From assembly GCF_004786015.1 (NCBI RefSeq), contig NZ_CP032096.1:1550001-1614000 (forward strand): a stretch of DNA of 64,000 nt, given 5' to 3'. Under the pieces are notes generated by a model that saw only the letters and a program-made list of their open reading frames with translations, was not told the DNA's origin and made no database searches. Source of the stretch: Hydrogenovibrio crunogenus (GTDB taxonomy: Bacteria > Pseudomonadota > Gammaproteobacteria > Thiomicrospirales > Thiomicrospiraceae). The position numbers were made by a program, and so were the translations under genes. Shown piece after piece: positions 6,601-63,639 of the stretch. Numbering within the stretch: position 1 is the stretch's first letter; every line of letters begins with the position of its first letter.

Positions 6601-6687
6601 TATCATAGTGTTCTCTGTGAACCGCCACTAATTTACAATGCACCATTTAGTCATCTAAACAAATTAGAATCTTTCTAAGGCTAATTT

Positions 6688-7113
6688 TCAGGTTTCGTAA
6701 AAGCTTCGGCATCGCAAGAGTTTCCTATTCAGATTAGACACTAATTTGATTATTGCAGAGCGTTCCGATAATAATTTTGATGCTTCTTCTATTAAAGCTT
6801 TAATTTTATGTGCATTTTCTTTGAATGGCCCTGATCGTTTCACATGCCGTGAAGGATTTTTTATTGTATATCCAAGAAAAACTGGTTCCTCGCCTTTTTC
6901 GACAGAATGCCAAACTAGCCATTTTGGATGTGGACAACCTAAACAATCTTTTCCACATCCGTATAAATGTAAAGTAATAGCTCCAGGTTTCCTAGGCTGA
7001 TTTAACTTTATTAGCTCTGAAATCAGATCTAACCTGAAATTTATTTCAGTAATTCTATCAAGAGAAACAGGTCCTATTTTTTCGTAAATTATTTGGTGCT
7101 CATTCGATGGCAT
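6688..7113 (-). CDS. Unrecognised small protein with a Cys cluster
   Basis: A 141-residue protein whose function I do not recognise. The start was chosen at 7113 rather than further upstream because AAGGA sits about 7 bases before this ATG. The visible core is HLYGCGKDCLGCPHPKWLVW (about residues 51-70), with three Cys and one His in a zinc-knuckle-like spacing. It continues into a YTIKNPSRHVKRSGPF segment and a helical, Leu/Lys-rich C-terminus. This Cys-G-C-P-H-P-x-W arrangement recalls small proteins found on phages and islands, but I cannot name a family with confidence. It sits alone between the transposase remnant and alpA, in AT-rich DNA, which suggests it came with the island. Confidence 0.6.
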   Translation of the reverse strand: MPSNEHQIIYEKIGPVSLDRITEINFRLDLISELIKLNQPRKPGAITLHLYGCGKDCLGCPHPKWLVWHSVEKGEEPVFLGYTIKNPSRHVKRSGPFKENAHKIKALIEEASKLLSERSAIIKLVSNLNRKLLRCRSFYET

Positions 7114-7430
7114 GGAAATTTCCTTTTTGCATATAATGTGCAATTTAAAAAAACATAAAAAAAATACCCAACAGAAATTTAGTGATTGAGGTCAGTAAAC
7201 GCGGGCACTCTTCTTAAGCAGCTGCTCAAAAAGGAAAGTGAAAAGGAAGATTTAGAATTATTTTTTTAGAACGATTTCTAATAAACTTGAAAAAACTCAA
7301 TCGATTAATTCTAAAAAATCCACATTAAATGGAATTTTTGATATTTAATCAGATATTAGTTAACAGATTTCTGCTTTAATTTTTATAAATGTCTTTCTGA
7401 AATATCTCCAGATTTCAGAAAGGTGGAATA
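7114..7430. other. AT-rich non-coding stretch upstream of alpA
   Basis: 317 bases with no credible gene on either strand. It should contain the divergent promoters for the Cys-rich gene (leftwards) and alpA (rightwards). The only clear structure is the inverted repeat at 7393-7422 in front of alpA. Confidence 0.6.
7393..7422 (+). promoter_or_regulatory. 11-bp perfect inverted repeat overlapping the alpA ribosome-binding region
   Basis: CTTTCTGAAAT (7393-7403) and ATTTCAGAAAG (7412-7422) are perfectly complementary with an 8-base spacer. The right arm runs into the Shine-Dalgarno region AGAAAGGTGG just before the alpA ATG at 7431. It could be an operator for AlpA or a partner protein, or an mRNA hairpin that hides the ribosome-binding site. 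Confidence 0.65.
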
Positions 7431-7625
7431 ATGATAGACAAAGTACCTGAGCAACTACTACCGTTGCCAAAAGTAGAGATGATGATAGGACTGAAAAAAT
7501 CAAAAATATATGCTTTAATTAAAACTGGTGAATTTCCAAAAAATCGAGTAATCAAAGGTAAAGCTTTATGGTTAAGCTCAGAAATTCAAAATTGGATATC
7601 CGAACAATGGCAAGCAGCTAAGTAA
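7431..7625 (+). CDS. AlpA-family transcriptional regulator
   Basis: A 64-residue DNA-binding protein of the AlpA/excisionase-like winged-helix group. The pattern is characteristic: LLPLPKVEMMIGLKKSKIYALIKTGEFP (recognition helix region, about residues 10-37), then KALWLSSEIQNWISEQ. Such proteins sit near the ends of prophages and integrative islands and activate the integrase or excision genes. GAAAGGTGG lies 5-9 bases before the ATG. It lies about 75 bases from the proposed attachment site at 7701-7719, the expected location at an island end, although no integrase gene is in the window. Confidence 0.88.
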   Translation: MIDKVPEQLLPLPKVEMMIGLKKSKIYALIKTGEFPKNRVIKGKALWLSSEIQNWISEQWQAAK

Positions 7626-7700
7626 TGTACTATTAATGTACCACTTACTTTTAAATTACTAAAAAATCCTCTAAAAAAGCTACTTCTATAGAAAAGTTTG

Positions 7701-7719
7701 TTTCCGCCCATCTCCACCA
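7701..7719 (+). other. Candidate attR: duplicated 3' end of a tmRNA or tRNA gene
   Basis: TTTCCGCCCATCTCCACCA has the layout of a stable-RNA 3' end: T-stem strand CCGCC, a 7-base acceptor strand CATCTCC, discriminator A, then CCA. It resembles the tmRNA end of other gammaproteobacteria, which commonly ends in CUCCACCA. The bases to the left do not form a T-loop or a matching 5' stem, so only the end is present. A terminator follows immediately. This is what an integrase leaves at one side after inserting into an RNA gene. Whether the target is ssrA or a tRNA cannot be settled here. Confidence 0.5.
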
Positions 7720-7730
7720 AACATTCATTC

Positions 7731-7757
7731 AATCTGTTAGGCCTTAGCAGATTTTTC
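7731..7757 (+). terminator. Terminator downstream of the RNA-gene 3' end
   Basis: AATCTGTTA pairs with TAGCAGATT (one G-U pair) around a small GGCCT loop and is followed by TTTC and TTT. It lies 12 bases after the CCA end and points rightwards, consistent with being the original terminator of the disrupted RNA gene. Confidence 0.6.
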
Positions 7758-7787
7758 TTTCCTCTAAATTTTTTAAATAATTGATTA

Positions 7788-7997
7788 TCAATTAACAGGA
7801 AGCGTCTTTAGATAATCGATGGTTTCCGGTGACAATATGACAATCAGTAAGACAATCACACCCAATACCAATAAAAACTTAAGCAGCAAAGTGGACACTT
7901 TAAAAATCAGATAAACCATTAAAGTGATAAACAGAAACACCAAAACGGAACTGGGATGCATTAAATCCAAAAGTGTTAAATAATCATTTGAAACCAT
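7788..7997 (-). CDS. Small hydrophobic membrane protein, unknown function
   Basis: A 69-residue protein with two closely spaced membrane helices (about residues 17-34 and 37-56) and no charged catalytic signature. I do not recognise a family. Its size and composition do not fit FliO, which would be the expected neighbour after fliN. It begins only 16 bases after the terminator hairpin that closes the fli operon, so it may be expressed by read-through or from a promoter inside that gap. The Shine-Dalgarno match is poor (AAGAAG). It could be a chance ORF, but the strong helix pattern and start position favour a real gene. Confidence 0.5.
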   Translation of the reverse strand: MVSNDYLTLLDLMHPSSVLVFLFITLMVYLIFKVSTLLLKFLLVLGVIVLLIVILSPETIDYLKTLPVN

Positions 7998-9560: not shown

Positions 9561-10154
9561 TTATTGCATCACAAAACGTTCGAAATAGACGTTTTCTAAT
9601 AAATCTGGATAAATATTTCTTTTTTCCAACACCGCTCTTGCTTTCGTTAGAATCTTTTCTCTTAAAATATCTGGACCATCATCCTTACTCATAACACTAT
9701 ATGTTTGGACTCTTAACAAAGAAGTGATATCGTTTCTTAAAATTGGGCGATAACTTTCCATCTCTGTTATCAACTGAGGGTAATGTGACATAAACTTTAA
9801 AGTTACCGCCAAAAACTTAGCTTGCCCTTCTCCTTTAAAGTTCACCACAAACGGTTCCATCGCAAAGTACTGTGGAGGCGAGCCTGGCTCTGGTGGTTCA
9901 TACTGTTTAAACTTAGGAGAATATTGTTGTACCACACCTTCACTTGAAACGACTGGTTCATCCGAGTGCTCAGCTGGCGCATGTTGCGCTGATTCTTCTG
10001 CATGAGCGGTTTGGTTTTCCCCATTACCACTTAACAGTACAAACGTCATTACAGCCACACCGACAATCAACAAAACAATGATGACTAATAGAGCAATAAT
10101 CATTCCTTTTCCGCCACCACTGCTTTTTTTCTCTTCTTGAACTTCTTCTGCCAT
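9561..10154 (-). CDS. fliL: Flagellar basal-body protein FliL
   Basis: A 197-residue single-pass inner-membrane protein. A cytoplasmic stub is followed by a helix at about residues 18-40 (MIIALLVIIVLLIVGVAVM) and a Glu/His/Pro-rich linker (residues 48-90). The conserved periplasmic domain follows (YFAMEPFVVNFKGEGQAKFLAVTLKFM ... LLENVYFERFVMQ). FliL rings surround the stator plug and stabilise MotAB under load. Its place directly between motB and fliM fits that role. The His/Glu linker is longer than in E. coli. Confidence 0.96.
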   Translation of the reverse strand: MAEEVQEEKKSSGGGKGMIIALLVIIVLLIVGVAVMTFVLLSGNGENQTAHAEESAQHAPAEHSDEPVVSSEGVVQQYSPKFKQYEPPEPGSPPQYFAMEPFVVNFKGEGQAKFLAVTLKFMSHYPQLITEMESYRPILRNDITSLLRVQTYSVMSKDDGPDILREKILTKARAVLEKRNIYPDLLENVYFERFVMQ

Positions 10155-10192
10155 GTTCTATCCCTTAAGTTCCTAAGTTAATTCTATTATTG

Positions 10193-11083
10193 TTAGTTCT
10201 GGTCAAGCGGTGAGTTAATCAATTCTTTTGATAAATCTTCCATCCCAGGTGCTTCACTTAGACTTTTTAAGCGTTCATCCGCTTCTTTATTCAGCACAAT
10301 TATACTGATTCGTCTATTACGAGGATTATACGGGTTTTCCTTGTCAAATGGCACCGTATCTGACAGTCCAACCACTTGAGCGATCTTTTTCTCTTCAACA
10401 CCACCATCTAACAACAATCTTCTGGCCGCATTGGCTCGATCAGCTGATAACTCCCAGTTAGTGTACTCTGCATTAGAGTGGTAACCTGATGAATCGGTAT
10501 GTCCCGCAATACTAATCCTATTGTTGGTTTGTGCTAAAACCGACCCAACCTCTTTTAATAACTTGGCAGCATAATCTTTTGGCAAATCAACACCACTACC
10601 AAACATCGGTCTTTTTCGATCATCTAACACTTGAACCTGAAGTCCGTTTGGCGTTACCTCAATTTTTAACTGATTTTTTAATTCATTAGTAATCGGGTTT
10701 TCCGAAATCTTTTGCTCTATCTGGCGCTTCAAATCTTCCATTTGCGCTTTTTCTTGAGCTTTTGCCTCACCATTTTCATTTTCAATACTGCCTTTAGGCG
10801 TATCTTTAAACCCTCCCATATCAATCATAGAGTCAGAGCTACGCCCGGCTTCTTTGGATGGCACCAAAACTTGTGGAGAGGCTTCAATCACCGTCGGGTC
10901 ACGAAAATATTCAGCCATGGCTTTCATTTCTTCATCATTGACCCCACCCAAAATCCAAAGCATTAAGAAGAAAGCCATTGCAGCAGTCATAAAGTCCGCG
11001 AACGCAACTTTCCAAGCCCCACCATGAGCACAGTGCGGGCATTTGGTTAACCGCTTTATAATTATGGACTGTTCTTCGCTCAT
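10193..11083 (-). CDS. motB: Flagellar stator protein MotB
   Basis: A 296-residue stator subunit. The single helix near residues 24-46 includes KVAFADFMTAAMAFFLMLWIL, with the essential ion-binding Asp in FADFM. A linker and plug region precede the OmpA-like peptidoglycan-binding domain (about 150-275: ISIAGHTDSSGYHSNAEYTNWELS ... NPRNRRISIIV). It is immediately downstream of motA and upstream of fliL. The coupling ion cannot be read with certainty. The TKCPHCAHGGAWK segment before the helix is typical of the longer MotB/MotD-type proteins of polar flagellates. Confidence 0.97.
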   Translation of the reverse strand: MSEEQSIIIKRLTKCPHCAHGGAWKVAFADFMTAAMAFFLMLWILGGVNDEEMKAMAEYFRDPTVIEASPQVLVPSKEAGRSSDSMIDMGGFKDTPKGSIENENGEAKAQEKAQMEDLKRQIEQKISENPITNELKNQLKIEVTPNGLQVQVLDDRKRPMFGSGVDLPKDYAAKLLKEVGSVLAQTNNRISIAGHTDSSGYHSNAEYTNWELSADRANAARRLLLDGGVEEKKIAQVVGLSDTVPFDKENPYNPRNRRISIIVLNKEADERLKSLSEAPGMEDLSKELINSPLDQN

Positions 11084-12016: not shown

Positions 12017-13009
12017 TTAAATGCTATTCACTGCTTTTGACAATGCTTCTTGAGCTATTTTTAACTGCGACAGATTATCTTCGATTTCATGAAAAAAATC
12101 ATTTACTTTTCCAGCCTGTACTTGGGTCGTTTCCACTCTTTCTTGACCGCTTCCCATCACTTCTACTGCATTACGCGCTCTTTGTTGCAGCTCTTCAATA
12201 ATTTTTTGAATTTCCGTTGTTGCTTGTTGCGTTTTTCCAGCCAAAATTCTGACCTCATCAGCCACAACTGCAAAACCTCTTCCATGCTCACCTGCTCGCG
12301 CTGCTTCAATAGCGGCATTAAGTGCCAGCAAATTCGTCTGTTCTGCGATATCACGGATCAGCACCAGAACGGTCCCAATGTTATTACTGTCTTCTTCAAG
12401 TTTTTTAATGACCGAAGAAGCATGTGTTACCTCATCTGTTAACCCACTGACTTCAGAGATAACACTCGAAGCTGATGACATTCCGGCATTGGTTCCAGTA
12501 CTCATTTTATCAACAACTGTTGATACATGCTCCGAGAGGCTCACAAGCTCTGAAGAATCAACATTCGATTGGCTGCTGCTGGCATCTGCCTGTGCATAAG
12601 CATCCGACAATGTTTCATTCAATTCTTCAATCTGGCTTTCTAACGTAGCAATTTGTGATTGATTAGCCTCAACTTCATCTTGTTTTGAACTAATAATCTC
12701 ATTCGCTTTTGACAATAACTGGTTAATACTTACTTGTAACTTTGGATCAATATTCTCATCAGACAAAGGAAGAAAGCTTGAATCACTTGACGCAACTTTA
12801 TCAACTGCTTCAATGACAGTAGTCTGATCGCATACTCCCGGTTTATTACACCAAACCAAATAAACCAGCGCACCAGCAACAACCGCCCCAACAAGGATGG
12901 CAATTAAGGCAACCCCTGCTATTGGCGCTCCCGTTATTTCTGACTGTGAAAGCGCCGTAGTTGAGAGCAAACCGGCTCCAAACATAACCAATTGTTGATG
13001 TAATTTCAT
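12017..13009 (-). CDS. Methyl-accepting chemotaxis-type signalling protein without a ligand domain
   Basis: A 330-residue receptor-like protein. The start at 13009 (ATG) was chosen over a GTG 15 bases upstream because AAGGAA lies at proper spacing before it. Residues about 4-22 resemble a signal sequence. A strong helix follows at about 32-54 ([24 protein letters not shown]), then two Cys ([10 protein letters not shown]). The rest is a methyl-accepting coiled coil with the hairpin tip [37 protein letters not shown], which binds CheW and CheA. There is no periplasmic sensor domain and no HAMP. It sits between fliK and motA in the motor operon, so it may sense the motor or membrane state, or the Cys pair may be redox-active. 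Both ideas are inference. Confidence 0.88.
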
Positions 13010-13028
13010 GCTTATTCCTTTCACTTTC

Positions 13029-21007: not shown

Positions 21008-22387
21008 TTATAAAACGTCCAACCCTTGCTCTTTAAAGCGTGCCAGTTTATACCTTAAGGTCCTTGGACTAATATTCAGTGCCTCAGCCGTTTTTTGACG
21101 ATGACCATTGTTCGCTTTTAACGTTTCTAAAATAATTTGCACTTCACGCTCTTTTAAATCCGTTGAGGGCGACTGACCATCTGTCGCAACGGATTGGTGA
21201 GTATCCACAGCTGAAGCTTCCACCTCTTTAACGCTATTTGCCTGGGAAGTCCCCGCATTTTGATGAAAGCTATCATCAAACAAAATATCCTGTTCTTGAA
21301 TGGTTTCACCAGACATCATCACCAATGCTCTTTGAATGACATTATCAAGCTCTCGAATATTTCCTGGCCATTGAAATTGAATTAATGAACGCATTGCAGG
21401 AGCCGACATCATTGGCTCTACTCTTCGACCACCGCAATGACGCTGCAATAGGCGTTCTGCAATAGCAGCAATATCTTTGGGGCGCTCTCTCAAAGGCGGA
21501 ATCCGCATCGGAAAAACATTTAACCGATAAAACAAATCTTCTCGAAAATCGCCATCAGCCATCGCTTTTTTCATATCAACATTGGATGCACTCAATACGC
21601 GCACATCTAATTTAATTAGCTTAGAACTACCGATACGTTCCACTTCTCGTTCTTGTAAAACCCTTAATAACTTCGCTTGCAAGTCAGGTTTCATTTCGCC
21701 AATTTCATCTAAAAAAATGGTTCCACCCTGCGCCAGTTCAAACTTACCTGGCATCGCTTTCATTGCACCGGTAAAAGAACCTTTTTCATAACCAAACAAG
21801 GTCGCTTCCAGCATGTTTTCAGGAATTGCGGCACAGTTGATAGCAACAAAAGGCTGTTTGCTTCGCGTGGAATGATTATGAATAAACCGAGCCAAAACTT
21901 CTTTCCCGGTGCCACTTTCTCCTGTAATCAAAACCGACGCGTCACTTTCGGCGACTTTTTTTGCCATCGATTTCAATTGTACGGTTGTTGCGTCAGCCAC
22001 CACAAAATCTTCTTCCGCCGAGGCGTCTCGATAAAAATACGCTTTTGCTTTTTCTACTAAAACATCCGCTTCAAAAGGCTTCAAGATATAATCTACCGCG
22101 CCTGACTTCATCGCTTCAACAGCCTGCTCTACCGTTCCATAAGCCGTCATTAACACAATAGGTAGGTATGGCTTGATCGCTCGAATACGTTTCATCAAAT
22201 CATAACCATTCATCCCATCCATACGGATGTCAGTGAAAACCATCGCAATCTCATCGTCCAATGCAACAAGTGCTTCTTCGGCAGACCCCACAGAAACAAC
22301 ATCAAACCCATTAAGCTCTAAGGTATCGACTAATGCTTCTTGTAATTCTGTATCATCTTCTACTACTAAAATCTTAGCAATACTCAT
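21008..22387 (-). CDS. fleR: Sigma54-dependent flagellar response regulator FleR/FlrC
   Basis: A 459-residue activator with three domains. The receiver domain is at about 1-120, with phospho-acceptor Asp53 in VFTDIRMDG. The AAA+ domain is at about 135-370, with Walker A GESGTGKE and the sigma54-contact loop reading GSFTGA instead of the common GAFTGA. A Fis-type helix-turn-helix closes it (GHRQKTAEALNISPRTLRYKLARFKE). The start overlaps the sensor-kinase stop by 4 bases. It would activate class III flagellar promoters once phosphorylated by FleS. Confidence 0.95.
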   Translation of the reverse strand: MSIAKILVVEDDTELQEALVDTLELNGFDVVSVGSAEEALVALDDEIAMVFTDIRMDGMNGYDLMKRIRAIKPYLPIVLMTAYGTVEQAVEAMKSGAVDYILKPFEADVLVEKAKAYFYRDASAEEDFVVADATTVQLKSMAKKVAESDASVLITGESGTGKEVLARFIHNHSTRSKQPFVAINCAAIPENMLEATLFGYEKGSFTGAMKAMPGKFELAQGGTIFLDEIGEMKPDLQAKLLRVLQEREVERIGSSKLIKLDVRVLSASNVDMKKAMADGDFREDLFYRLNVFPMRIPPLRERPKDIAAIAERLLQRHCGGRRVEPMMSAPAMRSLIQFQWPGNIRELDNVIQRALVMMSGETIQEQDILFDDSFHQNAGTSQANSVKEVEASAVDTHQSVATDGQSPSTDLKEREVQIILETLKANNGHRQKTAEALNISPRTLRYKLARFKEQGLDVL

Positions 22388-23556
22388 GAGCTCTCCTCAA
22401 TTCTTAACAAGGGTAAGCGCACACCAAAAACCGCTCCTCTTCCCACTACCGAGTTCACCCATACTTCTCCCCCATGTGCTTCAGCAACGGCCCTAACCAC
22501 TGCCAGACCAAGGCCTGTTCCTTGTGCACGACTGGTAAAAAAAGGTTCAAAAATTTTCTCATTCATTTCTTCTGTCAATCCTGGTCCATTATCTGCAACC
22601 ATAATATCAACCAAATTCTGTGTTGTTTTGACTGACACTGAAATTTCCGCCTGTTCAGAAACAATGTCAATTGCATTGCTTACCAAATTCTCTAAGGCTG
22701 TTAACAGCGCATCTTGATCCCCTAAAACGACCAGGCCTGGCGGAACTTCATCAAATTCAATCACACTTCTTGATTGTTGGGCTTTTGCCTCAACCGCTTG
22801 CTTTAAGCTCTCTAGCAATGCATCCACCGCTACCTTTTGATCTTTCGCCTTGCCGCCTTTTGCGTACTGCAACATATCGTTCACTAAGGATTCAAGATGA
22901 CGTAAACTATTTAAGGACTTGTGAACAAATTTTTCTCGTTTTTGAGAATCCAGTTGACCTGAAGACATTTGAGAAACATAAAGTAATGCCGAAGCAAGGG
23001 GGGTACGAATTTGATGTGCCAAAGAAGCCGCCATTTCTCCCATGGAACTTAAACGCTGGTGACGACTGATATGCTGTTGCAAATCTCTGGCATCAGTCAC
23101 ATCCTGAATTAATAAAATCTTCCCCGTGACATCGTGACCATCAAAAGAAAAGTTTAATGGGGATTCGGATAATTGGAATGTCATTTGGTTATGAGTAATA
23201 AGCTCTCCGGCATCATTAAAGGTTAAAAAGGCATTTCTAACCACAACTTCCCAAAGGCGCCCTACTGCATCTTTTCCTAAAATATTTTCTGCGGCAGGGT
23301 TCATATCGATAATTCTTTGTTGCTCATCTAACACAATAACACCAGCGGGAAGCAAATTTAACAACTGTTCAAGTCGTTCACCAACTTGGTGTTTTTCACG
23401 ATTACTTTCCGCTAATTTTTCTTGTAAATCTTCTACTTGATTTTGTAAAGACTCATAAGCCTGTGTCAGTTGAGAGGAAGTTTGATTAAAAAGCTCAAAG
23501 GCTTCTTCTAATTCGGCTAAGCGCTTTTGTTCAACTTCCTTTTCGATTGCACTCAC
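22384..23556 (-). CDS. fleS: Flagellar sensor histidine kinase FleS/FlrB
   Basis: A 390-residue soluble kinase with no membrane helix. An N-terminal coiled coil (residues 1-65) precedes a PAS domain (about 66-160: LLNLLPAGVIVLDEQQRIIDMNPAAENILG). The HisKA box is MAASLAHQIRTPLASALLYVSQM with the phosphorylated His. The catalytic domain has LENLVSNAIDIV (N box), DNGPGL and GTGLGLAVVRAVAEAHGG (G boxes). The start is a GTG with AAGGG 7 bases upstream. It is co-transcribed between fleQ and fleR. Its coding sequence contains one copy of CCAGGCCTGG (22731-22740). Confidence 0.95.
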   Translation of the reverse strand: MSAIEKEVEQKRLAELEEAFELFNQTSSQLTQAYESLQNQVEDLQEKLAESNREKHQVGERLEQLLNLLPAGVIVLDEQQRIIDMNPAAENILGKDAVGRLWEVVVRNAFLTFNDAGELITHNQMTFQLSESPLNFSFDGHDVTGKILLIQDVTDARDLQQHISRHQRLSSMGEMAASLAHQIRTPLASALLYVSQMSSGQLDSQKREKFVHKSLNSLRHLESLVNDMLQYAKGGKAKDQKVAVDALLESLKQAVEAKAQQSRSVIEFDEVPPGLVVLGDQDALLTALENLVSNAIDIVSEQAEISVSVKTTQNLVDIMVADNGPGLTEEMNEKIFEPFFTSRAQGTGLGLAVVRAVAEAHGGEVWVNSVVGRGAVFGVRLPLLRIEESS

Positions 23557-28955: not shown

Positions 28956-29819
28956 TTAACGAAGTAGTGAAAGTACGTTTTGCGACTGTTGGTTCGCTTG
29001 AGACAACATACTCATCCCTGCTTGTTGCAGTACTTGTGTACGCGCTAAGTCAGCACTTTCTTTTGCAAAGTCAGCATCTTCGATACGTGAACGCGCACCT
29101 TGGATGTTTTCATTTACATTCGATAAGTTTGAAACCGTTGATTCTAGTCGATTTTGTACCGCACCCCATGATGCACGCTGCAGGTTAAGCTTTGACATAA
29201 CAACGTCTAACTTAGAAACCGCTGCAGAAGCTGCTGTTGTTCCTGTTGCTGTACTTGTTAGAGTCAAAGATCCTAGCGTGACACCACCGGCAGACAATGC
29301 ACTGGTACCAACGTTCAACACACTCATTGAGATTTTGTTGTTAACACCAGATTCCCAACCAACGTGGAAGACTTTTGCAGTTGAAGCTCCAAGTGCTGCT
29401 GAATTCAACAAGTTAACACCGTTAAATTTTGTAGTCTGAGCAACACGATCAATCTCTTCTTGAAGGGCACTAAACTCTTCTTGCATTTGACTACGGTTAG
29501 CTGTGCTGTAGGTACCGTTCAATGCTTGAACACCTAACTCACGCATACGTTGCATCATGTTAGAAATTTCTTCAGATGCACCATCAGCTGTCTGGATTTT
29601 AGCCATCCCGTCGTTCGCGTTACGAATCGACATATCCGTACCCATTACCTGAGTTGTCATTTTAGTGGTAATCGCAAGACCAGCCGCATCATCTGCTGCG
29701 CCGTTAATACGTTTACCAGATGTCAAACGCTCCATCGCTGTTTGCTGATCAACAGTTGTGTTACTTAAAATACGGTTTGCATTGATTGCAGCCATATTAG
29801 TATTAATGACCATTGCCAT
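28956..29819 (-). CDS. Flagellin (second of a tandem pair)
   Basis: A 287-residue filament subunit. The start is at the ATG giving MAMVINTNMAAINANRILSNTT, with AAAGGAG upstream; this makes it exactly as long as its neighbour. The N- and C-terminal D0/D1 helices are standard (LTSGKRINGAADDAAGLAI; ARSRIEDADFAKESADLARTQVLQQAGMSML). The central part is short and ends in a Ser/Thr-rich stretch (TLTSTATGTTAASAAVSK, about residues 185-202), a good candidate for O-glycosylation by the Maf protein encoded upstream. Only about a dozen and a half residues differ from the other flagellin. Confidence 0.96.
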   Translation of the reverse strand: MAMVINTNMAAINANRILSNTTVDQQTAMERLTSGKRINGAADDAAGLAITTKMTTQVMGTDMSIRNANDGMAKIQTADGASEEISNMMQRMRELGVQALNGTYSTANRSQMQEEFSALQEEIDRVAQTTKFNGVNLLNSAALGASTAKVFHVGWESGVNNKISMSVLNVGTSALSAGGVTLGSLTLTSTATGTTAASAAVSKLDVVMSKLNLQRASWGAVQNRLESTVSNLSNVNENIQGARSRIEDADFAKESADLARTQVLQQAGMSMLSQANQQSQNVLSLLR

Positions 29820-29907
29820 GATACTTCTCCTTTTTTGAAAATCAGCTGAAACTTTCATTCCAGCTATACTTCTGCCTAATCGTAAAACTTTGAGCAGAAC
29901 TGGTTTA

Positions 29908-29926
29908 TTAAGTGCTTAGCACTTAA
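29908..29926. repeat. Inverted repeat between the two flagellin genes
   Basis: TTAAGTGC and GCACTTAA flank a 3-base spacer. No T-run follows on the transcribed strand, so it is not a clear terminator. It may be an RNA-processing or partial-termination hairpin setting the ratio of the two flagellins. Confidence 0.5.
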
Positions 29927-29976
29927 ATAAATTCTATTTTCACTTGCTGCGTACCTGACTTACTCGTGTTCTGCGA

Positions 29977-30840
29977 TTACTGAAGTAACTGCATAACATT
30001 TTGTGACTGCTGATTCGCTTGGGACAACATACTCATCCCTGCTTGTTGCAGTACTTGTGTACGCGCTAAGTTCGCACTTTCTTTTGCAAAGTCAGCATCT
30101 TCGATACGTGAACGTGCACCTTGGATGTTTTCATTTACATTCGACAAATTTGAAACCGTCGATTCTAATCGGTTCTGTAATGCACCCCATGATGCTCGTT
30201 GTAAATTCACTTTCGACATAACAACGTCTAACTTAGAAACCGCTGCAGAAGCTGCTGTTGTTCCTGTTGCTGTACTTGTTAGAGTCAAAGATCCTAACGT
30301 GACACCACCTGCAGACAATGCACTGGTACCAATATTCAACACACTCATTGAGATTTTGTTGTTAACACCAGATTCCCAACCAACGTGGAAGACTTTTGCA
30401 GTTGAAGCTCCAAGTGCTGCTGAATTCAACAAGTTAACACCGTTAAATTTTGTAGTCTGAGCAATACGATCAATCTCTTCTTGAAGGGCACTAAACTCTT
30501 CTTGCATTTGTGTACGGTTACCTGTGCTGTAGGTACCGTTCAATGCTTGAACGCCTAACTCACGCATACGTTGCAGCATGTTTGTGACTTCTTCTGAAGC
30601 ACCATCCGCCGTCTGGATTTTAGCAATCCCGTCGTTCGCGTTGCGAATCGCCATATCCGTACCCATTACCTGAGTCGTCATTTTAGTGGTAATCGCAAGA
30701 CCAGCCGCATCATCTGCTGCACCGTTAATACGTTTACCAGATGTCAAACGCTCCATCGCTGTTTGTTGATCAACAGTTGTACTTTCTAAGATACGGTTTG
30801 CATTGATTGCAGCCATATTTGTATTAATAACCATTGCCAT
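29977..30840 (-). CDS. fliC: Flagellin (first of a tandem pair)
   Basis: A 287-residue flagellin, promoter-proximal in the tandem array. The D0/D1 regions match the neighbour except for scattered conservative changes (ILESTT, TDMAIRNANDGIAKIQ, QNVMQLLQ). The central Ser/Thr-rich segment is identical. AGGAG lies upstream of the ATG and a sigma28-type element lies about 80 bases upstream. The identity of the pair in the middle, where flagellins usually diverge, points to recent duplication or gene conversion. The short variable domain plus Ser/Thr clustering fits a glycosylated filament. Confidence 0.96.
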   Translation of the reverse strand: MAMVINTNMAAINANRILESTTVDQQTAMERLTSGKRINGAADDAAGLAITTKMTTQVMGTDMAIRNANDGIAKIQTADGASEEVTNMLQRMRELGVQALNGTYSTGNRTQMQEEFSALQEEIDRIAQTTKFNGVNLLNSAALGASTAKVFHVGWESGVNNKISMSVLNIGTSALSAGGVTLGSLTLTSTATGTTAASAAVSKLDVVMSKVNLQRASWGALQNRLESTVSNLSNVNENIQGARSRIEDADFAKESANLARTQVLQQAGMSMLSQANQQSQNVMQLLQ

Positions 30841-54313: not shown

Positions 54314-55654
54314 TTACCAGGACCGGACAGTGTCACCAACTTGAATAAGGCCCTCTTTCGCCAAAATTTCAGCAACAGCAAACTTGGACTGGATACGTTT
54401 AATCTTCAGAAAACCAGCCGGTTTAGAATCCAGCCCTAAATCCATTCCCTGATAACGCACAGGACGACCAAAGTTATGGTAAACGGCTAACTCATCCCCT
54501 ACACGAGCACCTGACTCGCGCGACAAGAAAACAATATACTCACCATCTCTGATGTCAATTATTCGGGTTTCAACAGGACGGCAGTTTAAATAGCTATAAA
54601 CTGATTGCGTTTGCTCTTGTAGTAAAGCGTGAAAAATCATACCCGTATCGGTAGCAAAAAATGCGTTGGTACCAAAAGGTCGATCTCGTCCCACAACCAC
54701 ATCGCCTTTAACATCAAAGCCTTTTCTATTCTGAGAAACCACTTTATGATTCACTAAGTCGACAACATAGAAATCAACTTCTATATAACGTGCATTTGGC
54801 TGGACTTCCCGGTTATAAAACCGCTTAATATCATTCCATAACTTAGGGTCTTCATTGTGAGCCGAGATCGAACGAATCACCGATAACAATAAAAACTGTG
54901 CGCCAGTGCTCTCACGAACTGGGTCTAATACTTCCGGAGATAAATTAGGACCTACCGCTTGGTTTGGGTCAATCACGGAAGAATCTTCGAGCATCAAAAG
55001 GTTTTGATAACCTTGGTTTTTTAAGCGTCTTTCCAATTCATTTTGATACCCGACCAATAAATTTGAAATATCAGCGGCACCATAAGAATCTGTCGTGACA
55101 GGTCGAGCAATGGCTAACTTAGGCTGATAATGGTTGCCAGGAATATTATTACAGGCTTTGGGGTCTTCTGTTAGACAAACTTCCATTCGAACTTGATAAG
55201 TTTGTAGCTTCTTGATTTCTTCTGGTGATTTTTTCAATCCTTTTTCATTAAAAAGATCATCAAACTCGGGCTCTTTCACCCCTTCATCCATAATGATAAA
55301 TTTAGAGACTTTACTGTGACTGGTAAAGTGTGTCATATCCTTGGTAAGTGTGTAATCTTTGACCACCTGATCGGAATCGATACTCAGATTGTTTTGCATA
55401 CTGGCAAGCTTCAGACCATTTCTTATCGCCATTTGCCGAGCGAAGGCTTTTGAAACATCTTCCGTAGAGGCCGTGCCTGTCACAACGACACAATGCTTAG
55501 GGTAGGCCTGAGAGGATTCTTTTACTTGAGAAGATTCCTTTAAAGGGGTCGCAGCAACGGCAATGGCACTAAACAAGAAAGAAACCAGCAAAAGAGTCCA
55601 TTCTTTTGCAAACAAATACTTCCTTAAACCCCACAATATCATCAGTTTTTCCAT
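54314..55654 (-). CDS. flgT: Flagellar H-ring protein FlgT
   Basis: A protein of about 446 residues, longer than Vibrio FlgT. The ATG at 55654 is used; a TTG two codons earlier and an ATG four codons later are alternatives. A signal peptide (VSFLFSAIAVAA) leads to the N-domain (HCVVVTGTASTEDVSKAFARQMAIRNGLKLASMQNNLSIDSDQVVKDY). The middle domain follows (QPKLAIARPVTTDSYGAADISNLLVGYQNELERRL), and then a C-terminal SH3-like domain ending AEILAKEGLIQVGDTVRSW. FlgT forms the H ring around the LP ring in Vibrio motors. It lies 14-20 bases after cheV. Confidence 0.9.
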   Translation of the reverse strand: MEKLMILWGLRKYLFAKEWTLLLVSFLFSAIAVAATPLKESSQVKESSQAYPKHCVVVTGTASTEDVSKAFARQMAIRNGLKLASMQNNLSIDSDQVVKDYTLTKDMTHFTSHSKVSKFIIMDEGVKEPEFDDLFNEKGLKKSPEEIKKLQTYQVRMEVCLTEDPKACNNIPGNHYQPKLAIARPVTTDSYGAADISNLLVGYQNELERRLKNQGYQNLLMLEDSSVIDPNQAVGPNLSPEVLDPVRESTGAQFLLLSVIRSISAHNEDPKLWNDIKRFYNREVQPNARYIEVDFYVVDLVNHKVVSQNRKGFDVKGDVVVGRDRPFGTNAFFATDTGMIFHALLQEQTQSVYSYLNCRPVETRIIDIRDGEYIVFLSRESGARVGDELAVYHNFGRPVRYQGMDLGLDSKPAGFLKIKRIQSKFAVAEILAKEGLIQVGDTVRSW

Positions 55655-55674
55655 TCTCAACCCATTGCTTTGAA

Positions 55675-59359: not shown

Positions 59360-59383
59360 AAAAAAACCGGCTAAAAGCCGGTT
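59360..59383 (-). terminator. Terminator of the flgP-associated minus-strand cluster
   Basis: AACCGGCT and AGCCGGTT form an 8-bp stem around a 3-base loop; the minus strand continues with seven or more T. It faces the PilZ terminator, as expected for converging transcripts. Confidence 0.85.
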
Positions 59384-59448
59384 AAAAATTCTGAGTAAAA
59401 CATTCGATTCAGGTTCAAAAACCTTTCTTTTCACTTATTACAATACAC

Positions 59449-59745
59449 TTAAGGAAACGAATAACGATGATCTTTAAACGTTTTTTTCTTCTTTTTATTC
59501 GCTTCTTGCTGTCTTATAAAATCTTTTACTTCTAGTTTCAGTTGTTCAATATCTTTAAGTCCGTTTTTAAGTTCTTTCGAGTAAGATCGATTTTGCCTAG
59601 CTTGCTGTTTAATCAACTTGCTCTGCTTATAAACCTTACCTTCTAATATACGAACTCTTGTACTAATACTAGCAGCTTCCGCAATGGTCTGAAAGGTAAA
59701 CAACATCAACATTATAGAAACCACAAAGGTTATTTTTTTCATCAC
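59449..59745 (-). CDS. Small secreted coiled-coil protein, unknown function
   Basis: A 98-residue protein with a clear signal peptide (MMKKITFVVSIMLMLFTFQTIAEA, cleavage near 24). The mature part is helical and basic, predicted as a coiled coil (about residues 28-83), with a KKKKK cluster and a short tail. I do not recognise a family. It lies 40 bases after flgP on the same strand and before a strong terminator, so it is part of the flgP transcript. A periplasmic part for the motor disk, similar in position to FlgQ of Campylobacter, is conceivable, but there is no clear resemblance. Confidence 0.7.
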   Translation of the reverse strand: MMKKITFVVSIMLMLFTFQTIAEAASISTRVRILEGKVYKQSKLIKQQARQNRSYSKELKNGLKDIEQLKLEVKDFIRQQEANKKKKKTFKDHRYSFP

Positions 59746-59785
59746 CTTTCTCCTAAAGAAACACTAACACTTAATTCCTTAAGAG

Positions 59786-60418
59786 TTAACGTCCTCCAAT
59801 GCCTTGGAACTCATCTACTGAAATAGTCGTTTTTTTAGATTCATCATGGGTATAAACAAAGGTATTGTTAAAGAAGCTTTTATCAACATAAACTTCTAGG
59901 ATTGTCTCATAGTTATGATCAGCTAAAGGAGTAATACTGACAAGTCTAGCACCTCTTACCAGAGCATCAACCCTTGCTCTAAAACTATCATTTTGCGCTG
60001 TTAATGTAGCTACTGAAGTATTACTGTCAATTTTAATCCCATAAAGTTGTTCTGCAAGAGATCTATATGCATCTAATTTAGCAGAACGAATCGCCATTAA
60101 TCGACGTTGACCAGGCGTATATCCTTCAAAGGTACTTTCAGCGCCATAGCCAATACCTGAAATCTTAATCAATTCCGGCTCATGAGATTTTTTGTTCACT
60201 GTATAAACAACTTTTTGCTCTGATTCGGTATTTGATTTAGCCTTATCTTTTTCTACAGGCTCTACTTCGGCTTGCGCTTCAACCTTAATGCTATGTTTGG
60301 AATCAGCTACTTTAGGTTCCTGTTTTGATTGATATTCATTTTTAGTTGGTTGTGAAGTACAACCCGCTAATACAAAGGCACTGGTTAATGCCGTCAATAA
60401 TAAAGTCTGCTTTTTCAT
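59786..60418 (-). CDS. flgP: FlgP-like flagellar lipoprotein (LPP20 family)
   Basis: A 210-residue lipoprotein. The signal peptide ends in the lipobox LAGC (Cys near 20). A Lys/Glu/Gln linker of about 60 residues is longer than in Vibrio. The conserved domain (about 82-190) reads ISGIGYGAESTFEGYTPGQRRLMAIRSAKLDAYRSLAEQLYGIKIDSNTSVATLTAQNDSFRARVDALVRGARLVSI, the FlgP pattern. FlgP builds the outer-membrane-proximal basal disk in Vibrio and Campylobacter. It is flanked on both sides by unrecognised envelope proteins in the same orientation. Confidence 0.9.
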   Translation of the reverse strand: MKKQTLLLTALTSAFVLAGCTSQPTKNEYQSKQEPKVADSKHSIKVEAQAEVEPVEKDKAKSNTESEQKVVYTVNKKSHEPELIKISGIGYGAESTFEGYTPGQRRLMAIRSAKLDAYRSLAEQLYGIKIDSNTSVATLTAQNDSFRARVDALVRGARLVSITPLADHNYETILEVYVDKSFFNNTFVYTHDESKKTTISVDEFQGIGGR

Positions 60419-60433
60419 AACAGTTTCTCCGTT

Positions 60434-60691
60434 TTACTCAAAAAAAGATTGTTTTCTATAAGTCCGGTGAGTCACCCAATCATTCGATTGACCTTCCGCA
60501 CAATTATTCCGTTGTACACGATACTTAAGATCATCCGCATAGTATTCACAGCCATCACGATACTTAATATTTGAAATGGCACTCACATCATAATAACTTG
60601 GTACCGAATAAGTCGTGGTTGCATTACTACAAGCCATTAAACTGATTAAACTGACTATAGCGAATCCACGTTTCAACAAATCGACTAGCAT
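60434..60691 (-). CDS. Small lipoprotein, unknown function
   Basis: An 85-residue protein. The signal peptide ends in a lipobox-like SLMAC (Cys near 21). The mature part has Tyr-rich TTYSVPSYYDVSAISNIKYRDGCEYYADDLKYRVQRNNCAEG, with two Cys that could form a disulfide. It lies 15 bases upstream of flgP and 21 bases downstream of the repeat protein, so it is in the same transcript. I do not recognise a family, and it does not resemble FlgO. The position suggests an outer-membrane accessory of the flagellar disk. Confidence 0.75.
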   Translation of the reverse strand: MLVDLLKRGFAIVSLISLMACSNATTTYSVPSYYDVSAISNIKYRDGCEYYADDLKYRVQRNNCAEGQSNDWVTHRTYRKQSFFE

Positions 60692-60712
60692 CCATATTCC
60701 TCTTAATTATGC

Positions 60713-62068
60713 TTAACGCATACCATCGAAAAAAGGGTTGCTCGGTGCACTATATTGATAGCTGGATTCCTTTCTGTGTTGCTCTTTAATAAGCTCAGCT
60801 TGTTTTTGTTTTTTTATTGCTTCAAGTTCTTTTGATGCTTGAATTTGCTTTTCAAGTATTGTTTTTTCAACATTTTTAACCGTTTTTAAAACCGTCTTAT
60901 ACTGTGATTGTAAAGACTTAATACGTCGGTTCACTTCCGCAATCCTTCTCTGTGTAACGACCACTTGCGAACTTACTTTATCCATTTTTTTAACCAGATT
61001 AGGATTTACCTTCACCATGTCAATCGCCTGAGCAGCTGGAGCAGATTTCGTTTCTTTGGGTATCACCACCACAGTTTTATCTGTAGCTGCCTTATTATCG
61101 GCAGGTTTAGTACCTGTAGCCGGAGATTTAGCATCCGCTGGCTTAGGTGAAGTCGCTGCACTGCTTGATAACATTGGACTTAACTGTGTCAAATCTCGAT
61201 TTAGTTGCTCAATTTGGAAGCTTAACGCATCCAATTTTTTCTCGACCAACTTCACTGTTTTTTCAGAACTCGAGGCTTTAATCATGCTTTGGGTAGCGCC
61301 TGCTTGAATATCTTCCAACAAGGTCACTGTTTCCTCATCCAAACCTGAACTAGATGACATGGCACTCCAAAAGCCAACTCCAATTCCAACCAATACCAAA
61401 GTTATCGTGATTGAGCTGAAAATAATAATCAGTTTTTTTATTGAATCCATTTCGGCCACCGTTAAATTATTTGGACTTGCGTTTTGTTCTTGCGTTTGAT
61501 TTTGTTGTTGTAAAGCCGCGCGTTTTTGTAAAAAGTTTTCCGCACCATCTTCCATACCGGAGTCAGCCCCTCCTTGTTGTTCAGGGGGAGACATCATATT
61601 GCCGCCTTCAGGCGGATCTGTGCTGAATAAAGGCTCAAGCTCGGGCTCAGGCATTCCCATACCCATTCCAGCTGATGGCGCTGGCTCAGGTTCAGACGCT
61701 GGCTCAGGTTCAGACACTGGCTCAGGTTCAGACGCTGGCTCAGGTTCAGGCGCTGGTTCAGGTTCAGGCGCTGGCTCAGGTTCAGACGCTGGCTCAGGTT
61801 CAGACGCTGGCTCAGGTTCAGACGCTGGTTCAGGTTCAGACGCTGGTTCAGGTTCAGGCGCTGGCTCAGGTTCAGGCGCTGGCTCAGGTTCAGACGCTGG
61901 TTCGGCATCTAAACCATCTAATAAATCATCATCAACATCACTTAATGTATCGGCAGCATCTTCAGTCGCACTTTCATTTTCTGAAACGGCTTCCAGCTCG
62001 GCTTCATCCAATAATGCATCTATACTGTCTAAATCATTAGGGTCAATTGTGTCGCCAGTATCAGCCAC
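60713..62068 (-). CDS. Single-pass membrane protein with SEPEPA repeats and periplasmic coiled coil, unknown
   Basis: A 451-residue protein starting at GTG (GAGG 9 bases upstream). Residues 1-55 are acidic ([28 protein letters not shown]). Residues about 56-131 are about 12 hexads of the type SEPEPA or PEPEPA. A Met/Gly/Pro-rich linker leads to one membrane helix at about 214-237 ([22 protein letters not shown]). The outer part has two coiled coils (270-300, 365-430), separated by an Ala/Lys/Pro linker, and a Tyr/Pro tail. Pro-rich arms beside a membrane helix suggest reach between compartments. I know no family match. It heads the transcript that contains flgP. Confidence 0.8.
61680..61908 (-). 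repeat. 18-bp tandem repeat encoding [12 protein letters not shown]
   Basis: About 12 tandem copies of an 18-bp unit (plus strand GGCTCAGGTTCAGACGCT and variants with GGCGCT or GGTTCA). The third-position variants are mixed along the array, suggesting past slippage or unequal exchange. Confidence 0.95.
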
Positions 62069-62125: not shown

Positions 62126-62167
62126 ATTTTCATAAAACTGACCAGGCCTGGCCATACTTATGAAAAT
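62126..62167. repeat. 42-bp palindrome with CCAGGCCTGG core
   Basis: ATTTTCATAA on the left and TTATGAAAAT on the right are perfect inverted copies around TG, CCAGGCCTGG and CA; 17 of 21 pairs are complementary. It lies between the LpoA-like gene and the repeat-protein gene. Confidence 0.85.
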
Positions 62168-62190: not shown

Positions 62191-63639
62191 CTAGTCAGTT
62201 AACTTTTCAAATACACCCGTATCCAACCAATATATTTCTGGATAGAAATGATAGTTTTGATTCTCATCTAGGGTTAATTGACCCAATTGAGTGTTCATAA
62301 CCATCGAGTGTTTCTGTGTTGTTTCAATGACAGTCCTTGCCGCCAACTCACCTAAAGCATAAAAAATGCCAATCTGACCGATTTGATCAGTATTTTTATT
62401 ATTTTGCTTAATTGAGCGCGCATAAGACACTGGAAGGATGGCAGACGTAGCTTGCCAAAAAGGAATACTGGCGGCAAATTCATCAACACTTGGGCGTTGG
62501 GACGGTAACCAGTAATGTGGAATGCTGTTTAAATGGTAATACTCTAAAAGAGGCGAAACTTGCATTGCAAGTCGGTAAGGTAAAAAACTAATGACCAGCT
62601 CAAGGTCTTGTCGTGGACGCTCTGTAAACTGAATAGGGGATCGAACGGTTCTTTGCAGCCAAGATTTTCGAGCCGTAGACTGGCGTGAATTTACAGCCCT
62701 CTCTAATGCCTGATCAACATTTGAAACCACTGGTTGCTCTTGAATATACACAGGATAATCTGATTCTTGTTCAGGCCAGTGATTTTTAAAGTCGGCCATT
62801 AATGCTTTTGAGCTATCAGATTCGTCAGTTAAAACGGCAATACGTTGATAATGCCCCTCCTTAACTAAGTCAACCAACTTATCTACAGCATCCTTATTCG
62901 ATAAGGGGACAAAGCTTTTGGCAAGGGCGTTCGGTTTTTTAATCTCATTAAATACCAGCATTGGTATACTTAATTCCAAGGCACTCAAAGCCTCTACATT
63001 TTCTTTCACCAATGGACCGAAAATAAAACTGGGTTGATAAAGCCGGATCCATTCCCAAGCTTCAAACATAGAATCGTAGATATTCGAATCCAGTACTTCC
63101 AGCTTCTCTTCTGGGTACATTGATTTCAATGACGACTTCAACCCTTCATAAAGCTCTTGACCCGCGCGTGAATAAGGACCCGACATAGGCAGCACTGCAA
63201 GGACTCTTCCTGGCTTAAATGCAAACGTTGCCGATGCTTCATCTGACGGTTTCGATTGGTTTAAATAATCCTGCAAAACCGTCATGCGATCTTGAATGTT
63301 AGAAGGCAGTTCGATTCCTTGAGCCTGTGTCTTGAGTTCAGAAAGATAAGTTTGAACTTGATCGGTCTGACCATTTTTATGAGCAAGCTCCGCCTTCAGC
63401 AATAAAATCTCAAGGTCAATTAACTGAATCTGCTCATCCAAAGAAAGATTAGCTGGTGGAGAGTTTTCATCAAGTTGCTGTGTTTGCTTTGCTGGAACAT
63501 CAAACGATAGTGCAACGGCAGAGTAGGCAAATATTGCCAATGGCAATAAAACGGTGCGGCCCAATAAGCCGAATAGTTTATTGGGCAAGAAAAACAAGCT
63601 TAATGCCTGCTTAATACAATAAACCAAAGACATCATCAT
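62191..63639 (-). CDS. LpoA-like penicillin-binding-protein activator
   Basis: A 482-residue envelope protein. The N-terminus contains a long hydrophobic segment (about 24-43), and a helical region (60-130) precedes a periplasmic-binding-protein-like domain (from about 145). That domain shows RVLAVLPMSGPYSRAGQELYEGLKSSL, PSFIFGPLVKENVEALSAL and YQRIAVLTDESDSSKALMADF, as in the C-terminal half of LpoA. E. coli LpoA (678 residues) is longer and is a lipoprotein, but no lipobox is visible here, so the anchor may be the helix. The ATG overlaps the pepN stop (ATGA); two further ATG codons follow at once. It would stimulate PBP1A at the septum or side wall. Confidence 0.8.
   Translation of the reverse strand: MMMSLVYCIKQALSLFFLPNKLFGLLGRTVLLPLAIFAYSAVALSFDVPAKQTQQLDENSPPANLSLDEQIQLIDLEILLLKAELAHKNGQTDQVQTYLSELKTQAQGIELPSNIQDRMTVLQDYLNQSKPSDEASATFAFKPGRVLAVLPMSGPYSRAGQELYEGLKSSLKSMYPEEKLEVLDSNIYDSMFEAWEWIRLYQPSFIFGPLVKENVEALSALELSIPMLVFNEIKKPNALAKSFVPLSNKDAVDKLVDLVKEGHYQRIAVLTDESDSSKALMADFKNHWPEQESDYPVYIQEQPVVSNVDQALERAVNSRQSTARKSWLQRTVRSPIQFTERPRQDLELVISFLPYRLAMQVSPLLEYYHLNSIPHYWLPSQRPSVDEFAASIPFWQATSAILPVSYARSIKQNNKNTDQIGQIGIFYALGELAARTVIETTQKHSMVMNTQLGQLTLDENQNYHFYPEIYWLDTGVFEKLTD

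Follow-up and report, generated by a model that had tools for sequence, protein, structure and literature searches.

Proteins added to FlgP-containing flagellar motors have been described in other bacteria. In the excerpted text of the respective reports, PflC of Campylobacter jejuni docks under the FlgP ring via a C-terminal domain that follows a proline-rich linker (PMC12222027), and the lipoprotein FapH (HP0838) of Helicobacter pylori is encoded in the flgP operon (PMC11756786). Excerpts of two further reports give EIDALL of FliM and FliY as the binding site of phosphorylated CheY (CheY-P) (PMC9126983, PMC6700473). Here, we describe a set of genes around flgP in a 64,000-nucleotide stretch of Hydrogenovibrio crunogenus (NZ_CP032096.1, the genome being one contig of 2.45 Mb); this whole stretch is called the window, and all coordinates refer to it. 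The set comprises flgP and three genes named here TM451, LP85, and CC98, a candidate accessory set of the flagellar motor. Its informative parts are an IDALL motif at the N terminus of TM451 and a C-terminal aromatic-proline tag, and neither was mentioned in the initial annotation of this DNA, which had proposed the three genes as a flagellar scaffold.

Organization and inheritance of the flgP gene set

As described in the initial annotation, the four genes around flgP are co-oriented, lying head to tail on the minus strand between positions 59449 and 62068 (open reading frame [ORF] coordinates). TM451 (60713 to 62068) is predicted to encode a single-pass protein with a cytoplasmic IDALL motif, an acidic linker, one transmembrane segment, and two periplasmic coiled-coil helices; it is followed by LP85 (60434 to 60691), encoding a small lipoprotein, by flgP (59786 to 60418), and by CC98 (59449 to 59745), encoding a small secreted coiled coil. 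According to the ORF coordinates, the intergenic gaps are 21 bp (TM451-LP85), 15 bp (LP85-flgP), and 40 bp (flgP-CC98). The strong terminator that had been predicted to close the set was recovered by pattern and folding as an intrinsic terminator at positions 59365 to 59383 of the minus strand, with a folding energy of -12.4 kcal/mol and a z score of -3.91, and none of 200 shuffled sequences was as good; terminator-type patterns by themselves are commonplace (5 in 7 kb versus 5.0 expected). Judging from this arrangement, the four genes are probably transcribed as an operon.

The identity of FlgP is secure, given that its LPP20 domain matches PF02169 above the cut-off (E = 1e-8; 35.9 bits versus 25.9) and that the family profile matches the solved FlgP chains 8z5n (5.5e-13) and 9hmf (4.3e-12). 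TM451, LP85, and CC98 had no Pfam or NCBIfam match above the curated cut-offs.

To follow the inheritance of these genes, presence and absence were scored in a sample of 62 genomes of the family (Thiomicrospiraceae), 40 loci were fetched for gene order, and 80 loci were named, 37 from the family (Hydrogenovibrio, Thiomicrorhabdus, Thiomicrospira, and Sulfurivirga) and 43 from outside it (L219 to L261). The row sets A1, A2, and A3 contained 35, 34, and 31 rows, respectively, with the window included and with near-duplicates and the broken TM451 of locus L071 left out, and A4 and A5 contained 33 and 34. FlgP was found in 58 of the 62 family genomes, FliM in 57, CC98 in 55, and TM451 in 58 by profile versus 56 by single-sequence search. 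The phylogenetic profile suggested in the initial annotation gave full agreement between FlgP and TM451, since both were present in 58 genomes and both were missing in 4 (62/62 concordant). Three genomes had no FliM, FlgP, TM451, or CC98: G053, which is complete in a single contig, and G019 and G048, which are 84% and 86% complete. FliM was also not found in G034 and G057 (88% and 83% complete), the former being without CC98 as well.

The order LpoA-like gene, TM451, (lipoprotein), FlgP, CC98 recurs in the 40 loci, with or without flgA, flgM, flgN, and pilZ after it. Among the 37 named family loci, TM451 is present in 36 and CC98 in 35; L186 and L188 lie at contig ends, and CC98 is missing from L214 (Thiomicrospira sp. 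ALE5). In locus L071 (genome G020), TM451 is in pieces at positions 6638 to 7799 of that locus, with flgP and CC98 intact, which could be a true loss or a sequencing error. Overall, we consider it very probable that TM451, LP85, flgP, and CC98 form an accessory set of the flagellar motor.

LP85, which has a lipobox-like SLMAC when read from the sequence, is dispensable: a lipoprotein-like ORF with P-x-Y-Y, likewise read from the sequences, stands at its position in 26 of the 40 loci (39 tabulated, and L079 judged from coordinates). The scaffold proposal of the initial annotation is retained in part: co-inheritance with flgP and the flagellum and the conserved order speak for it, LP85 is an optional member, and a scaffold role as well as a connection of cytoplasm, membrane, and disk stay conjectural. 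As a separate observation, the C terminus of FlgP is aromatic (NFYYTE, NYYLAE) in the non-family loci L135 to L140, L220 to L224, and L242, and these tails recall the YYFE end of LP85 homologs in the genus of the window.

Outside the family, 274 genomes drawn across the class were searched, with a match threshold of E ≤ 0.001 for TM451 and CC98. FlgP was found in 11 of them, two from the family and seven others with strong matches. TM451 gave 12 matches and CC98 gave 10, of which two each were from the family and the remainder were weak, and none of the weak matches fell within the seven genomes with a strong non-family FlgP. Neither protein was found in the 43 named non-family FlgP loci (E < 1e-4) or in G199, a genome of the FlgO/FlgP/FlgT type. 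Thus, by sequence search, TM451 and CC98 were not convincingly found beyond the family in the 274 sampled genomes and the 43 named loci, and no sign that the genes are widespread without flgP was seen in the 62 family and 274 class-sample genomes.

The weak matches were not accepted as remote homologs. Ten were obtained for TM451 (E values of 3.5e-8 to 9.1e-4), and the two loci that were read supported no homolog: one showed only an ORF opposite the match, and the other encodes what we take to be an EnvC-like peptidase. Of the eight for CC98, none of the seven readable ones carried the tag, and L116 gave no ORF; three of them, ending in PPHY, are presumably SlyX, and L114 resembles CC98 at the mature start (ASISDRVTALE), with GWKGPE as its C terminus.

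The C-terminal tag and the N-terminal motif

CC98 starts with a signal-peptide-like stretch, as read from the sequence, followed by ASISTRVRILExK. An RhxxhE pattern, which favors three-stranded coils, is present in all 34 aligned copies, and comparison with the PDB returned generic coils. A short similarity between CC98 and TM451 (E = 0.008 over 16 residues) was taken as a chance resemblance between lysine-rich coils. The CC98 protein ends in YSFP (59452 to 59463, minus strand), and all 34 copies in the alignment share a C terminus of the form [YF]x[FY]P. A terminal [YF]P is present on TM451 in 27 of the 40 loci (28 if the broken gene of L071 is counted), usually as SYP or similar outside the genus of the window; in L077 and L079, which have no CC98, the C terminus of TM451 is FSFP/FSYP.

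In the window's own genome, the pattern TAYNNNTWYCCNTAR occurs 9 times versus 43 times for a backward control (TGA stops and residues other than Tyr at position -4 are excluded from this count), and CC98 is the only recognizable gene that ends in it, the rest being an anonymous ORF of 88 amino acids, an ORF of 27 amino acids, and frames no longer than 41 codons. In 35 of the 43 named non-family FlgP loci, a downstream ORF on the same strand, mostly about 1.2 kb past flgP, has a terminal [YF]P; three of the eight untagged loci are short contigs, and L225 has WIQYRR at that place. Counted by ORF, the terminal [YF]P is found in 37/306 downstream ORFs versus 6/3039 others. With a greedy gene set from 50 non-family loci, it was found in 26/109 downstream, 0/68 upstream, and 0/564 genes elsewhere, and the stricter [YF]x[FY]P was found in 7/109 downstream, with none upstream and none elsewhere.

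The proteins that carry the tag outside the family are of unrelated architecture. They include a secreted coil in L261, secreted proteins with YSYP or YAYP at the C terminus (L219 to L224 and L242), a transmembrane coiled coil ending in YVFP (L220 and L221), and FimV/LysM-like proteins ending in WV[QRKH][FY]P (such as in L226, L229, L232, L254, and L257). After removal of the last 10 residues, only three FimV/LysM-like proteins among 11 representatives resembled each other convincingly.

Burkholderiales flgP loci have a secreted, mostly FimV/LysM-like WV[QRKH][FY]P protein between flgT-like and fliK-like genes (L226, positions 9812 to 10270, with equivalents in L229, L231, L232, L254, and L257), which is an unrecognized candidate motor part. 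Among the flgT genes, that of L220 was confirmed by Pfam and that of L232 only weakly so, and the other flgT and fliK genes were named by eye. A plain LysM label was not adopted for the Burkholderiales proteins, as Pfam LysM matched one of three (E = 0.038); NCBIfam FimV_core matched five of five, the best at 1.9e-8, all under the cut-off, and so they are called FimV/LysM-like only.

At the opposite end of the set, residues 8 to 24 of TM451 (61997 to 62047, minus strand) form a nearly invariant FliM-like region. Its core, [IL]D[AS]LL, is present in 39 of the 40 relatives, the sole exception (L088) terminating near a contig end, and its D, L, and L are found in 39/39. Within the first 45 residues, [IVL]D[AS]LL occurred in 38 of 1,412 greedy ORFs from 90 loci, and all 38 were in the TM451 context. 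A slightly broader form of the motif was found at three places in the 65 ORFs of the window: at the N termini of FliM and TM451, and once inside 22384 to 23556. The window's FliM begins with MDDILSQDEVDALLKG, and LSQDEVDAL was found in family FliM in 30/30 loci. The IDALL motif of TM451 may work like the docking peptide of FliM.

Between the motif and the membrane span lies an acidic linker of 104 to 165 residues in 38 relatives (L088, cut at a contig end, and L079 were left out) versus 189 residues in the window, owing to expansion of an 18-bp repeat. This minisatellite (61679 to 61900, minus strand), a tandem repeat with 12.3 copies and 95% matches, encodes the SEPEPA array. The initial annotation had described the large protein as one with SEPEPA repeats. 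The window has 8 SEPEP units and none of the 40 relatives has 3 or more, and 5 of 40 have EP-rich tracts 12 residues or longer; we rejected the array as a functional module and regard it as an expanded repeat in the linker of this strain.

Hydropathy and the alignment place the single transmembrane segment of TM451 at about residues 213 to 231 (61376 to 61432, minus strand). A cytoplasmic N terminus fits this topology, because KK directly precedes the only hydrophobic span. An AlphaFold2 model (mean predicted local distance difference test [pLDDT] score of 75.6) has two long helices past the span, at about residues 245 to 301 (61166 to 61336, minus strand) and 356 to 434 (60767 to 61003, minus strand), with a low-confidence stretch between them. 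At 0.15 nm per residue, these helices would measure about 8.6 and 11.9 nm, and the TM451 profile matched generic coils in the PDB.

Neighboring genes and regulatory sites

Next to TM451 lies a gene for an LpoA-like periplasmic protein (62191 to 63639, minus strand), a syntenic neighbor that possibly belongs to the set. It adjoins TM451 in 39 of the 40 family loci, the 40th being cut by a contig end, at a distance of 9 to 239 bp in 33 named loci. PF04348 matched 28 of 33 relatives (E ≤ 0.01) and failed to match the protein of the window; the model of the latter (pLDDT of 86.0) had LpoA as its best Foldseek match, with a template modeling score of about 0.53, and the profile matched LpoA 5kcn at 4.6e-9. 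A clearer LppC is encoded elsewhere in the genome, and a genome search with LppC found only that gene. The LpoA-like protein may be a duplicated LpoA recruited for peptidoglycan remodeling around the motor. An unnamed gene of about 880 amino acids upstream of it is often kept too.

The FlgT that had been reported nearby corresponds to a gene at 54314 to 55660. This candidate is a weak match that scores below the FlgT_M cut-off (24.3 versus 31.2 bits), had no PDB match, and is separated from the four-gene set by flgA, flgM, flgN, and pilZ on the opposite strand. FlgO had no match in the window's own genome, and since the control genomes were silent too, no conclusion is drawn from this.

The window contains more sigma-28-like sites than expected (23 versus 7.0), with none between 59 and 64 kb. 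A sigma-54-like site at 62356 to 62371 is within chance (36 sites versus 38.7 expected). A perfect short palindrome, TGGCCAGGCCTGGTCA, is located at 62139 to 62154, between the LpoA-like gene and TM451; as a hairpin it has a z score of -2.92, and 4 of 200 shuffled sequences were as good. It could be a terminator, an attenuator, or an operator.

Elsewhere in the window, we observed a methyl-accepting chemotaxis protein-like signaling protein with no obvious sensor domain (12017 to 13024), flanked by motA and a gene that by eye is fliK-like, and two nearly identical tandem flagellin genes (28956 to 30840). Downstream of the flagellin pair, at 33 to 38 kb, are glycosylation-type genes (NeuB/NeuC-like, by eye).

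A proposed motor layer and its known counterparts

We propose that the whole set provides a family-specific accessory layer of a FlgP-type flagellar motor. FlgP would form the disk under the outer membrane, and CC98 would decorate this disk, docking via its C-terminal YxFP. TM451 would be a trans-envelope strut: from the inner membrane, its coiled coils would reach across the periplasm towards the disk, and in most genera it also ends in a Y/F-P tag. In the cytoplasm, its long acidic tail would bear an IDALL helix like that of FliM, which would bind CheY-P or otherwise be positioned at the switch complex. As for LP85, it would be an optional lipoprotein add-on. For this full explanation, with an operon for the layer, a docked CC98, and a strut with a helix facing the switch or CheY, we see the chances as evenly balanced. 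For its parts, docking of the tag on the FlgP/FlgT disk, with FlgP or FlgT as the putative partner, is slightly favored, and binding of CheY-P by the N-terminal helix of TM451 is suggested only tentatively. More doubtful is the broader proposal that many FlgP-type motors share a docking code of about [YVI]x[FY]P-COOH, which would clip each lineage's own unrelated periplasmic part (a coil, a membrane strut, or a FimV/LysM-like binder of peptidoglycan) onto the FlgP/FlgT disk, and that the Hydrogenovibrio family would in addition have a tagged strut with a FliM-like CheY-P helix linking disk and switch.

Several observations weigh against these proposals. G036 (520 contigs) keeps FliM yet has no FlgP, TM451, or CC98, and no match to CC98 was obtained in G052 or G060, both of which contain FlgP, TM451, and FliM. 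TM451 of the window has no tag, ending in FFDGMR, and neither do those of 10 other loci of its genus. No downstream ORF was tagged in the seven FlgP loci of the class sample (L135 to L141), so the tag is not universal; moreover, the tagged loci are related by descent, and their counts therefore measure specificity and not the number of independent origins, which is smaller. Finally, TM451 has no complete LSQxEIDALL; the LSQxE half is missing, and the motif is therefore not classed as a FliM motif.

This partial resemblance to FliM counts in favor of a rival proposal, a purely periplasmic scaffold, in which TM451 would be an inner membrane-anchored coil running from the stators or peptidoglycan to the disk, with an acidic tail that binds FliG, FliN, or a polar landmark and has no CheY role. 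The YVFP-tailed transmembrane coiled coil of the Sulfuricella-type flgP locus (L220 and L221) points the same way, having almost no cytoplasmic part. However, no stretch of TM451 is more conserved than the N-terminal motif, when the motif counts are set against the alignment, and in the excerpts of the cited reports CheY-P binds this same helix core (PMC9126983, PMC6700473). We regard a scaffold without a CheY role as possible, at a level somewhat short of probable.

The tag itself could be a signal for processing or stability, such as protection from periplasmic tail-specific proteases, instead of a docking site. Its carriers are mostly small secreted proteins, as such a signal would have it, but the confinement of [YF]P to the surroundings of flgP in the non-family loci argues otherwise, and we find this explanation unlikely. 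More improbable still is that the genes form an envelope or peptidoglycan operon of the ordinary kind (encoding an LpoA-like protein, a lipoprotein, and coils) that neighbors flgP merely by conserved chromosome order. The relation of the LpoA-like gene to a PBP1A activator and the frequent retention of the gene beyond it would suit such an operon. Against it, TM451 and CC98 are gone along with flgP in the three genomes mentioned above that have neither FliM nor flgP, one of them complete, the locus is variable on its CC98 side but constant in its core, and the tag ties CC98 to flgP neighbors in other bacteria.

The periplasmic disks of flagellar motors differ among lineages, and a shared tag beside flgP would, if true, be a simple rule by which new parts are recruited. 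It would also predict unlabeled motor proteins from sequence alone, including in Hylemonella (L256), whose motor has been imaged according to the excerpted report (PMC13023049). A protein that spans the envelope and bears a CheY-docking-like helix would, if true, form a new physical link between chemotaxis signaling and the outer disk. Among the open-access literature matches listed, there was no description of the gene set or the tag and no motor tomogram of this family.

Compared with known systems, the locus shares FlgP and a FlgT-like gene near flgA-flgM-flgN with the Vibrio-type FlgO/FlgP/FlgT H-ring (see also the excerpt of PMC13023049). It differs in that FlgO is without a match here, where the controls are silent too, and in that TM451 and CC98 were not found in G199. 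FapH and LP85, compared by gene position, are both small lipoproteins encoded beside flgP (PMC11756786). The docking peptide of FliM, LSQxEIDALL, and TM451 share the IDALL core at the very N terminus, before a flexible stretch, whereas in TM451 LSQxE is replaced by NDLDS and the carrier is a membrane protein. Like PflC, PflD, and FlgQ of C. jejuni, the present set would consist of lineage-specific periplasmic proteins added to FlgP rings, within what the excerpt describes (PMC12222027). PflC is there a globular protein derived from a protease, whereas the present set would be made of coils with a short C-terminal tag, one of them crossing the inner membrane. By analogy, its recruitment logic would resemble that of PflC, except that a short tag would do what a folded domain does in PflC.

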